Source: Thiomonas sp. FB-6 (lineage in GTDB: Bacteria > Pseudomonadota > Gammaproteobacteria > Burkholderiales > Burkholderiaceae_C). Taken from it: a DNA stretch of 56,826 nucleotides. A program made the position numbers and the translations under genes. This document shows positions 24,717-27,734 of the stretch, piece by piece. The notes under the pieces are model-generated. The model saw nothing but the letters and a program-made list of their open reading frames with translations, did no database searches and had not been told where the DNA came from. How positions within the stretch are numbered: the stretch's first letter is position 1; each line of letters opens with the position of its first letter. The stretch is taken from NCBI RefSeq assembly GCF_000377645.1, contig NZ_KB898489.1, positions 1-56,826 on the forward strand, read 5' to 3'.

Positions 24717-24764
24717 ACACTAGCGCTAGTGTCTATGATTGCCATGAGCCACTAGATCTAGTGG
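24717..24764 (+). promoter_or_regulatory. Pair of NrdR boxes upstream of nrdD
   Basis: Two perfect 16-bp palindromes occur: ACACTAGCGCTAGTGT (24717-24732) and CCACTAGATCTAGTGG (24749-24764). Their centres are 32 bp apart, three helical turns. NrdR boxes (consensus ACACWATATATWGTGT) come as such pairs upstream of ribonucleotide reductase operons. The outer ACAC/GTGT-type bases match; the centre is more GC-rich than the consensus. They end 14 bp before the nrdD start, so binding would block initiation. Confidence 0.8.
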
Positions 24765-24777
24765 AATGGGAGCCCTG

Positions 24778-26793
24778 ATGTTCTCCGATGCGACGACCCC
24801 GACCCTCCATGTGATCAAGCGCGACGGCAGCCTGCGCTCCTTCGATGCGCACAAGATCGCCAGTGCGCTGGCGCGCGCGGGCCAGGCCGCCGGCGAGTTC
24901 GATGCCGCGCGGGCGCTGCAGTTGACCCGCGCCGGCGTGCTGCCGCGCCTGGCCGCGCTCGGAGCGCCGACACCGCATATCGAACAGATCCAGGACGCCG
25001 TGGAGGCCACGCTGTTCGATGCCGGCCACCGCGCGACGCTGCGTGCCTACATCGTCTACCGCGAGCAGCACCGCAAGCTGCGCGACGCGCGACGCAGTCT
25101 GGTCGACGTCGAGGCCTCGATGAACGAGTACCTGCAGCAGACGGATTGGCGGGTCAACGCCAATGCCAACCAGGGCTATTCGCTGGGCGGACTGATCCTC
25201 AACGTCTCCGGCAAGGTGGTGGCCAATTACTGGCTGGATCACGTCTACCCGCCCGAGATCGGCCAGGCCCACCGCGCCGCCGACATCCACATCCACGATC
25301 TGGACATGCTCAGCGGCTACTGCGCCGGATGGTCCCTGCGCACCTTGCTGCAGGAAGGGCTCAACGGCGTTCCTGGCAAGGTGGAATCGGGACCTCCGGA
25401 GCACCTGAGCAGCGCCGTCGGACAGATCGTCAACTTTCTCGGCACCATGCAGAACGAGTGGGCCGGGGCGCAGGCCTTCAGCTCCTTCGATACCTACCTC
25501 GCACCCTACGTGCGCAAGGACGGCCTGGACTACGCGCAGGTGCGCCAGTGCGTGCAGGAGCTGATCTACAACCTCAACGTGCCCTCGCGCTGGGGCACGC
25601 AGACACCCTTCACCAACCTGACCTTCGACTGGGTCTGCCCCGAGGACCTGCGCGAGCAGGTTCCGTGCATCGGCGGGCGCGAGATGCCCTTCCACTACGG
25701 CGAATTGCAGGCCGAGATGGACCTGATCAACCGCGCCTACATCGACGTGATGAGCGCCGGCGACGCCCGCGGCCGGGTGTTCACCTTTCCGATCCCCACC
25801 TACAACATCACCTCCGATTTCGACTGGGACAGCCCCAATGCGCGGGCGCTGTTCGAGATGACGGCGCGCTACGGCCTGCCGTACTTCCAGAACTTCATCA
25901 ACTCGGAACTCAGGCCCCACCAGATCCGCTCCATGTGCTGCCGCCTGCAGCTCGACCTGCGCGAGTTGCTCAAGCGCGGCAACGGCCTGTTCGGCTCGGC
26001 GGAACAGACCGGTTCGCTCGGGGTCGTCACGATCAATTGCGCGCGCCTGGGACATGTGCACGCGGGCGACGAAGCCGGCCTGTTCGCGCGCCTGGATGAG
26101 CTGCTGGAACTCGGGCGCCAGAGCCTGGAGATCAAACGCAAGGTGATCCAGCGCCTGATCGACCAGGGACTGTTCCCCTACACCCGGCGCTATCTGGGCA
26201 CCCTGCGCAACCACTTTTCCACCCTGGGCGTGAATGGCATCCACGAGATGATCCGCAACTTCACGCGGGACGCGCACGGCATCACCACCGACTCCGGTCA
26301 CGCGCTGGCGGCCCGGCTGCTGGATCACGTGCGCGCGCGCATGGTCGCCTTCCAGGAAGAGACCGGGCATCTGTACAACCTGGAGGCCACGCCGGCCGAA
26401 GGCACGACCTACCGCTTCGCCAAGGAAGACCGCAAGCGCTACCCCGGCATCCTGCAGGCGGGCACGGCGCGCAACCCCTACTACACCAATTCCTCGCAAT
26501 TGCCGGTGGACTTCACCGACGATCCCTTCGAGGCGCTGGAGCGCCAGGACGAGCTGCAGCGCAAGTACACCGGCGGCACCGTGCTGCACCTGTACATGCG
26601 CGAACGCCTGTCCGGCGCCGAGGCCTGCCGCGATCTGGTGCGGCGAGCGCTGACCCGCTTTCGCCTGCCCTACATCACCGTCACCCCGACCTTCTCGATC
26701 TGCCCCAGCCACGGCTACCTCGACGGACACCACGAGTTCTGTCCGAAGTGCGATGCCGAGATCCTGGCGCGCAAGCAGCGCCAGGCGGCCTGA
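24778..26793 (+). CDS. nrdD: Anaerobic (class III) ribonucleoside-triphosphate reductase, large part without the glycyl-radical segment
   Basis: NrdD reduces NTPs to dNTPs without oxygen. The start at 24778 follows GGGAG (24768-24772); an in-frame ATG at 24766 has no such site. The 672-residue product has an N-terminal ATP-cone domain (VIKRDGSLRSFDAHKIASAL), the barrel with active-site cysteine region RSMCCRLQ and TINCARLG, and a C-terminal zinc ribbon (ICPSHGYL, then FCPKCDAEIL). The glycyl-radical motif RVxGY expected after the zinc ribbon is missing: the gene ends in TGA (26791-26793) and the motif lies on the next small ORF in the same frame. Two NrdR boxes and an FNR-like site precede it. 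Confidence 0.92.
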   Translation: MFSDATTPTLHVIKRDGSLRSFDAHKIASALARAGQAAGEFDAARALQLTRAGVLPRLAALGAPTPHIEQIQDAVEATLFDAGHRATLRAYIVYREQHRKLRDARRSLVDVEASMNEYLQQTDWRVNANANQGYSLGGLILNVSGKVVANYWLDHVYPPEIGQAHRAADIHIHDLDMLSGYCAGWSLRTLLQEGLNGVPGKVESGPPEHLSSAVGQIVNFLGTMQNEWAGAQAFSSFDTYLAPYVRKDGLDYAQVRQCVQELIYNLNVPSRWGTQTPFTNLTFDWVCPEDLREQVPCIGGREMPFHYGELQAEMDLINRAYIDVMSAGDARGRVFTFPIPTYNITSDFDWDSPNARALFEMTARYGLPYFQNFINSELRPHQIRSMCCRLQLDLRELLKRGNGLFGSAEQTGSLGVVTINCARLGHVHAGDEAGLFARLDELLELGRQSLEIKRKVIQRLIDQGLFPYTRRYLGTLRNHFSTLGVNGIHEMIRNFTRDAHGITTDSGHALAARLLDHVRARMVAFQEETGHLYNLEATPAEGTTYRFAKEDRKRYPGILQAGTARNPYYTNSSQLPVDFTDDPFEALERQDELQRKYTGGTVLHLYMRERLSGAEACRDLVRRALTRFRLPYITVTPTFSICPSHGYLDGHHEFCPKCDAEILARKQRQAA

Positions 26794-26832
26794 GTCCATT
26801 GCCCGCCACAACCCGACCTGGAGATGACCACC

Positions 26833-27021
26833 ATGCCTGAAACCGCATCCACCGAAGCCGTCGCCGCCCCTGCCCTCAGCCTGCGCGACGAGGAGCGCCA
26901 GCGCTGCGAGGTGTGGACCCGCGTGATGGGCTACCACCGCCCGGTGGCCTCGTTCAACATCGGCAAGCGCGGCGAATTCGAGCAGCGCACCTGCTTCGAG
27001 CAAAACCCTTGCCGCGCCTGA
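26833..27021 (+). CDS. Separate glycyl-radical segment of class III ribonucleotide reductase
   Basis: This 62-residue ORF carries the radical motif of NrdD as its own polypeptide: RQRCEVWTRVMGYHRPVASF, with the likely radical Gly in RVMGY, then KRGEFEQRTCFEQ. It lies in the same frame as nrdD, separated by one TGA and ten codons. GGAG at 26820-26823 sits nine bases before the ATG at 26833, so it looks translated from its own ribosome site; an in-frame ATG at 26824 is too close to GGAG. Its stop overlaps the nrdG start (TGATG). An alanine-rich N-terminal arm (TEAVAAPALS) has no counterpart in one-piece NrdD. The two chains must associate for activity, unless the TGA is read through. Confidence 0.8.
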   Translation: MPETASTEAVAAPALSLRDEERQRCEVWTRVMGYHRPVASFNIGKRGEFEQRTCFEQNPCRA

Positions 27022-27734
27022 TGCCCGCCACGGCCACGGCGCATGCCGGGCCGCGCATCGGCGGCCTGACACCCTTCACGAGCATCGATTACCCCGGCAA
27101 GCTCAGCGCCGTGGTGTACCTGCTGGGCTGCCCCTGGCGCTGCGCCTACTGCCACAACCAGCACCTGCAGGCACGCGACGCGCCGGCGGGGCCGGCCTGG
27201 CCCGCGCTCAAGACCTGGCTGCGGGGCCGCCGCGGCCTGCTCGACGCGGTGGTGTTCAGCGGCGGCGAGCCGACCCTCGACGCGGCCCTGGGGCCGGCCA
27301 TGGACGAGGTGCGCGAACTAGGCTTCGCCACGGGGCTGCACAGCGCCGGCATGTATCCGCGCCGCCTTCGTGCCGTGCTGTCGCGCACGGACTGGGTGGG
27401 CCTGGACGTCAAGGCGCCGCTGGACGACGATGCGCTGCATGAGCGCATCACCGGTGTGGCTGGCGGTATCGATGCAGTGCGCGAAAGCCTGCGCGCGGTG
27501 CGCGAGGCCGGCATCGCGCATGAAGTTCGCACGACAGCGCATTCTTCCCTCCTTGACGACGCCGCCTTGCTGCGCCTGGCCGGCAGCGTGGCGAGCCTGG
27601 GAATCCAGCGATACGCGCTGCAACTGGCCCGTGCGACCGGTACGACGGCCCCACGGGCGTTGAACTACCCGGCACGCTCCACCGTCGCGCGCCTGCGGAC
27701 CATGTTCGCCCACTTCACGCTTCGAGCCGACTGA
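27021..27734 (+). CDS. nrdG: Radical-SAM activating enzyme of anaerobic ribonucleotide reductase
   Basis: NrdG uses S-adenosylmethionine and a [4Fe-4S] cluster to create the glycyl radical on NrdD. The 237-residue product has the radical-SAM motif CPWRCAYC (Cys37, Cys41, Cys44; CxxxCxxC), the glycine-rich element FSGGEPTLD, and WVGLDVKAPLDD. It resembles the longer NrdG form annotated as anaerobic ribonucleoside-triphosphate reductase activating protein. The start overlaps the stop of the glycyl-radical ORF, so nrdD, the radical ORF and nrdG form a tight operon. Confidence 0.9.
   Translation: MPATATAHAGPRIGGLTPFTSIDYPGKLSAVVYLLGCPWRCAYCHNQHLQARDAPAGPAWPALKTWLRGRRGLLDAVVFSGGEPTLDAALGPAMDEVRELGFATGLHSAGMYPRRLRAVLSRTDWVGLDVKAPLDDDALHERITGVAGGIDAVRESLRAVREAGIAHEVRTTAHSSLLDDAALLRLAGSVASLGIQRYALQLARATGTTAPRALNYPARSTVARLRTMFAHFTLRAD

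Follow-up and report, generated by a model that had tools for sequence, protein, structure and literature searches.

Where does the class III (anaerobic) ribonucleotide reductase (RNR) of Thiomonas sp. FB-6 carry its radical glycine? The question arises from the 56,826-nucleotide stretch of DNA that we analyzed as a whole (the window), in which a large nrdD gene, a 62-residue open reading frame (ORF) and nrdG lie consecutively on the + strand (Table 1). An earlier note, made from the letters alone, had read the large NrdD as ending after its zinc ribbon at a TGA, with the motif RVMGY, which should hold the radical glycine, on the small ORF in the same frame; it left a choice between two assembling chains and partial read-through of the TGA. 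The reading itself was borne out. The large chain terminates just past the zinc-ribbon motif, its C-terminal end being ...HHEFCPKCDAEILARKQRQAA followed by the TGA, and the small ORF with RVMGY lies in the same frame with no further stop between.

Table 1. Coordinates of the nrdD-nrdG region in the window
Feature	Position	Strand	Basis and remarks
NrdR-like box 1, palindrome ACACTAGCGCTAGTGT	24717..24732		pattern derived from the sites after the fact; differs at 4 positions from the NrdR consensus used
NrdR-like box 2, palindrome CCACTAGATCTAGTGG	24749..24764		16 bp from box 1; differs at 4 positions from the NrdR consensus used
Alternative start of nrdD large chain (ATG)	24766	+	would yield 675 aa
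nrdD large chain, 671 aa	24778..26793	+	ATP cone, catalytic barrel, zinc ribbon, without glycyl-radical segment; Pfam and NCBIfam, class III RNR structures by sequence
Zinc-ribbon motif CPSHGYLDGHHEFCPKC, near large-chain end	26701..26751	+	read in sequence; putative ligand role by homology
TGA stop of nrdD large chain	26791..26793	+	
GGAG, likely ribosome site of small gene	26820..26823	+	read in sequence; start flagged +39 after stop
Small chain, 62 aa, predicted glycyl-radical subunit (WTRVMGYHRPVASFN)	26833..27021	+	Pfam NRDD 531-561; conserved in relatives
Gly33 codon, presumed radical glycine	26929..26931	+	position in RVMGY; putative radical by homology
nrdG, radical SAM activase, 237 aa	27021..27734	+	NCBIfam NrdG2

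The small gene has its own GGAG, as the note had claimed, and its stop (27019-27021) overlaps the ATG of nrdG (27021-27023) in the TGATG that the note had pointed out. The distance given there, ten codons beyond the TGA, holds for the ATG at 26824, which the GGAG abuts, and not for the likelier start; the spacing is better for ATG 26833, and since this is the right distance from the GGAG, the small protein probably begins there, 13 codons past the TGA, and has 62 amino acids. An antisense ORF of 779 codons also spans nrdD (window 24733-27072, minus strand); given the 68% G+C, it is most likely a chance reading frame.

Together, the two chains cover one known protein profile. The large chain matches positions 2-529 of the 562 in Pfam NRDD (PF13597; E 1.4e-172, 575.7 bits) and stops there, so that its C-terminus does not include the glycyl-radical motif, and the small chain, which has the motif, matches positions 531-561 (E 3.7e-7). 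In NCBIfam PRK08270 (684 positions), the large chain corresponds to 4-659 and the small chain to 649-683. The large chain has an ATP cone (PF03477, 70.5 bits) and matches solved class III RNR structures by sequence, and the nrdG product scores 183.1 bits against NrdG2 (TIGR02495; cut-off 131.15). For the small protein, NRDD is the sole Pfam match at E up to 1, a search in which no pyruvate formate-lyase (PFL)-type glycine radical domain was found on it. The genome that the window comes from (99.71% complete) has one match to the small protein and two NRDD matches, which are these two pieces; thus, our small-protein and NRDD searches found no second NrdD-type glycyl-radical segment in this genome.

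Is this arrangement peculiar to one genome? We surveyed the class with the NRDD profile, which favors neither the split nor the one-piece form. Among 370 genomes, 39 were NRDD positive: in 30 the large piece stopped near position 530 and the small piece was separate, 7 had a one-piece form (branch lengths in the tree mark three of these as remote NrdD types), and 2 had a fragment only or a weak match. The stop between the pieces was read in sequence for 10 of the 30 (the window, L128, L130, L133, L237, L238, and L240-L243), and the other split genomes were taken from the match table. Matches to the small protein occur in 22 of the 150 family genomes, and each of these 22 has the large gene in the retrieved stretch. 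The split is therefore more than chance (22/22 family genomes, 30/39 class genomes). The split large piece was accompanied by a small piece in 30/30 class genomes and stood alone in none. This pairing, and the location of RVMGY on the small chain, argue against the idea that the large chain is active by itself, through some other hydrogen-abstracting route, with the small protein being regulatory; we regard that as highly unlikely.

Searches with the small protein as the query, which favors split forms, extend the picture. In a phylum sample, 17 of 398 genomes matched: 12 with an adjacent large gene, 3 with a one-piece form, 1 taken as a chance match, and 1 (G482) without an adjacent large gene. 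The G482 locus (L125) had been a candidate adjacent split and was rejected, as its stretch has no large gene; the sole large piece and sole small piece of this genome are 9.5 kb apart on the same contig. Small-protein matches at L023 and L139 were taken as chance, there being no NRDD match at the place of L023. Our 84 public loci (80 among the matches listed plus four plasmid regions, again with a query that favors the split form) include 67 that, among the matches listed, carry a split tag and have the large gene within the stretch, though in L148 it is on the opposite strand. Another 16, among the matches listed, have no large gene in the stretch, and two of these (L168 and L214) lie at contig ends with nrdG following. 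The remaining tag, a "fused" L180, is false, since a different frame is open there. The split public loci include bins labeled Acidobacteria, Actinobacteria, and Omnitrophica. Altogether, the two-piece arrangement is real and widespread and is not an error.

Public annotation already contains the small ORF. It is called "nrdD" in C. necator H16, Bradyrhizobium, Sulfuricurvum, and Thiothrix, and "hypothetical protein" in a Paracoccus record. A 1999 study of the C. necator enzyme reportedly found that nrdD and nrdG were needed for anaerobic growth. The annotation of plasmid pHG1 shows the small ORF, despite the listing of NrdD and NrdG from pHG1 as an ordinary pair in the sections of PMC3019208 at hand. 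In excerpts of PMC12284477, the P. aeruginosa NrdD is given as 76 kDa, which would fit the split length. Several variants turned up in these searches. A 0.9-Mb genome (G384; L239/L136) has a split NrdD with a small chain reading SRSMGFIRP, in which Phe replaces Tyr after the glycine. The large NrdD of G674 (L238) contains an intein-like insert, CVDAETECLT...KTFVTGN, between GTQ and TPFTN, and in G908, as in G674, the NRDD match is in two parts within one frame. A one-piece-type NrdD exists beside the split one in 5 of 14 public genomes (L162, L165, L173, L174, and L197, in G919, G926, G922, G927, and G924, respectively); it is partial in G922 and broken in G924.

It is tempting to take the in-frame ORF of the window, with no other stop before it, as a sign that the TGA is partly read through, so that a full-length NrdD is the working enzyme and the small ORF goes unused by itself. 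Of the 103 rows in which we compared frames and stops, 98 are split loci and three are one-piece forms; L018 has a broken frame, and L221 (tagged "FUSED 205") is treated as another. To enter the table, a locus had to show both hits on the same strand, and its large match had to extend to residue 640 or beyond. Most rows have, ahead of the small gene, an ATG accompanied by a sequence resembling a ribosome site. Across the 98 split loci, some of whose rows are near copies of one another, the large gene ends in TGA (50), TAA (32), or TAG (16), and the small gene is in frame in 33 and in the other two frames in 30 and 35; further stops separate the pieces in 8 of the 33 in-frame loci. The earlier note had looked to relatives for the same split with a conserved TGA: the split recurs, but the TGA is not conserved. 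Because the frames are evenly spread over the 98 loci, the in-frame placement in the window is about a one-in-three event. Since both the stop codon and the frame vary, and the G482 pieces are 9.5 kb apart, read-through is, judged by these loci, not the general mechanism. Stand-alone copies of the small gene without a large gene nearby, conserved as protein, also speak against it, and we consider it very improbable.

A sequencing error at the TGA, which the note had weighed, is excluded because relatives show the same split. More broadly, a sequencing or assembly error, or a pseudogene, would mean that NrdD is broken in the window genome. The stop itself is the one observation in favor; against it are the same border in relatives across families and phyla, the start signal of the small gene, and constraint at the protein level, and we give this explanation practically no weight. 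The constraint comes from aligning the small-ORF family, a check that the note had proposed. In 223 aligned cores, a set that includes repeat loci and a few one-piece forms, entropy is 1.29-1.44 bits at third codon positions versus 0.35-0.55 bits at the first two, and the excess of third-position variability is alike in the bacterial and viral sets. By this measure, the small chain is conserved as a protein. We had also considered the cysteine in ERQxCE, invariant in 20 sequences, as a mark of the detached form; this was dropped, as the cysteine is also present in one-piece L224, L225, L228, and L229.

The evolutionary history was examined in a quick tree of large chains, with SH-aLRT support only; its 85 rows are 73 split and 12 fused, two of the fused rows being second copies of the same genes. 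The split or fused state requires four changes on this tree. Fused Actinomyces and Acidiphilium plasmid forms nest within an otherwise split group of 44 rows (support 95, inner forks 84-91); the deep order is unsafe, with several very long outgroup branches. These one-piece forms are likely re-fusions, which, if the tree is right, argues that the pieces work together. The two-chain option of the earlier note has thus gained on several sides: complementary profile coverage, conserved pairing in 30/30 genomes, separated pieces in G482, and protein-level constraint. With a high degree of confidence, we predict that the window encodes a two-subunit class III RNR.

How might such an enzyme work? 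In glycyl radical enzymes, as described in the parts of PMC4493059, PMC8683613, and PMC3019208 consulted, the activase takes a hydrogen from the glycine and the radical acts via a cysteine in the barrel; the same parts describe how oxygen cuts the chain at the glycine. In the window, the large chain would contribute the ATP cone, catalytic barrel, and zinc ribbon, and the 62-residue chain would supply the glycyl-radical segment found at the C-terminus of one-piece enzymes. The small chain would dock at the site of the C-terminal loop of one-piece NrdD, NrdG would abstract hydrogen from its Gly33, and the glycyl radical would generate a thiyl radical in the large chain. If the mechanism is as in one-piece relatives, the radical must pass between chains, because the barrel belongs to one chain and the glycine to the other. 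For a read-through chain from a Nitrosomonadales locus, an AlphaFold model shows the class III RNR fold (36 best PDB rows) with a mean pLDDT of 69.9; from residue 711 on, glycine included, pLDDT is about 30, and docking of the small segment was not seen in this model, which has no confidence around the glycine.

One-piece NrdD (PF13597, PRK08270) resembles the window in its ATP cone, barrel, zinc ribbon, glycyl motif, and adjacent nrdG, but it has the glycyl segment on the same chain, whereas the window has a second, separately translated chain. Other known systems resemble it in part. YfiD/GrcA and T4 Y06I, the spare parts of PFL, are likewise small free-standing proteins with the glycyl-radical segment of a larger enzyme, occurring in bacterial and phage versions, with oxygen damage as the likely reason (sections of PMC8683613 at hand). 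However, YfiD/GrcA is a PFL-type back-up for a complete chain whose enzyme has its own radical glycine; the small chain of the window is NrdD type and would be the only source of a radical glycine for a large chain that has no glycyl segment; any rescue role is conjectural. NrdJa/NrdJb of Pseudomonas aeruginosa, a split class II RNR, also consists of two polypeptides, but it belongs to another RNR class and, in the portions of PMC4520616 and PMC4860495 consulted, has no known detachable radical-carrying part. Phage nrdD genes can be in pieces as well; the examples in the excerpt of PMC3653736 are breaks in single phages, several of them by introns or homing endonucleases, and do not share a conserved subunit border at the glycyl segment, unlike the window.

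A detached radical chain raises a further possibility, which is exchange. An oxygen cut at the glycine would cost only the small chain (about 7 kDa), and a fresh one could replace it; additional stand-alone genes and phage copies could supply the pool. Taken as a whole, a two-subunit class III RNR whose small chain would carry the glycyl radical, with exchange as an added conjecture, is the best explanation, and we think it quite probable. Whether the small chain is an exchangeable part is, by itself, an even question. The conjecture gains from copies of the small gene that stand alone, some of them behind NrdR-like boxes, and from copies in phages; these suggest a spare-part system analogous to YfiD/GrcA.

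The stand-alone copies come from public genomes. All 14 examined have a split pair, and small genes beyond this pair, between one and three per genome, are present in 13; this is not a rate, as 12 were picked for a known stand-alone locus (one of the other two also has an extra copy). Three extra copies adjoin phage integrases (L145, L164, and L181), and others adjoin genes such as those for Clp ATPase, topoisomerase, or prolyl-tRNA synthetase. In Magnetospirillum fulvum (L208:4971-8257), a stand-alone small gene immediately precedes class I nrdA- and nrdB-like genes, with the split NrdD pair elsewhere in the genome. A second small copy in G788 (L236) is near a RecT-like gene, suggesting a prophage.

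Some of these genes may be under NrdR control. Two palindromes, 16 bp apart, lie just upstream of nrdD in the window, and we scored them against what we take to be the NrdR consensus. The box pattern, derived from the sites after the fact, was not matched as often in any of 100 shuffles, and a genome-wide search found only these two sites and no other RNR gene with the pattern. NrdR box pairs in three bacteria are spaced 15-16 bp apart in the sections of PMC12051234 at hand. We call the palindromes NrdR-like, and NrdR is a candidate regulator of the window operon. Under a loose rule (31 bases start to start), double boxes precede 5 of 15 stand-alone small genes and 29 of 51 large genes, compared with none of 78 viral loci; random stretches drawn from the same loci had them in 49 of 2640 cases. 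The five boxed stand-alone copies are from related rumen Alphaproteobacteria and are not independent, with differing neighborhoods; the three copies beside integrases have no box pair. A boxed extra copy shares 42 of 43 core residues with the operonic copy in one genome and 39 of 43 in another.

The small gene also occurs in phages. An IMG/VR scan gave 139 stretches encoding a relative, of which 80 were kept; one of these loci (L030) has the large piece in the retrieved stretch. Of 27 whole phage records among the 80, 26 lack a large piece (one record shows a further 15-bit match); a radical SAM match is present in 5, and a NrdG-like gene is absent from 22. IMG/VR records are mostly fragments, and absence from a record does not prove absence from the phage. 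Five of nine contigs inspected have clear phage neighbors, such as head-tail adaptor, head assembly, replication initiation, helicase, clamp loader, integrase, and virion or lysis genes. The small protein had no match at 1e-5 in 50,697 GenBank phage records, and a phage-type query gave two weak matches (E 0.04). In PHROG, the small protein matches positions 117-157 of the 179 in phrog_4132 (function unknown; E 4e-8), a family that may share this radical segment within a longer protein.

These copies can be read in another way, in which the enzyme is an obligate two-chain form, a frozen gene fission whose small chain never leaves the complex. The copies in phages and outside the operon would then be strays or do another job, e.g., slowing host dNTP synthesis as an NrdG decoy substrate. 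Extra copies are indeed rare in the unbiased surveys (1/30 split genomes of the class, G788; 0/22 in the family), a second small-protein match in G127 was chance, and the small-protein search found no extra copy in the window's own genome. The phage contigs, too, mostly lack NrdD (26/27) and NrdG-like genes (22/27), so the effect of the phage protein must fall on host proteins, whether helpful or harmful. Against this, the NrdR-like boxes before five stand-alone copies, together with a sequence nearly that of the operonic chain, speak for a shared role. We consider a fixed two-chain enzyme a serious alternative, if a somewhat improbable one. The fullest form of the exchange proposal, an exchangeable radical subunit in Proteobacteria with NrdR-controlled spares and prophage refill, in which phages would sustain or revive host anaerobic dNTP synthesis, is one that we put forward tentatively, at a little short of even chances.

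In the parts consulted, RNR surveys (PMC3653736, PMC9531940, PMC4390871, PMC9669993, PMC2795772, and PMC3019208) make no mention of a split NrdD, and a literature search on spare parts and split NrdD, covering titles and the beginnings of abstracts, found no description of the split. This two-chain variant of a known enzyme is apparently undescribed as such in the literature searched. Class III RNR appears there, in the portions at hand, as one catalytic chain with a C-terminal glycyl radical, yet 30 of 39 class genomes have two pieces. To omit the small ORF would be to study such an enzyme without its radical site. The validated spare parts are YfiD and Y06I alone, according to the sections of PMC8683613 at hand, which consider others possible for glycyl radical enzymes; a free radical-bearing subunit makes that question directly testable. 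The phage copies suggest that viruses, too, use the radical subunit. If the proposal is true, pyruvate formate-lyase would be joined by a second glycyl radical enzyme with a spare-part system, namely NrdD with its exchangeable subunit.
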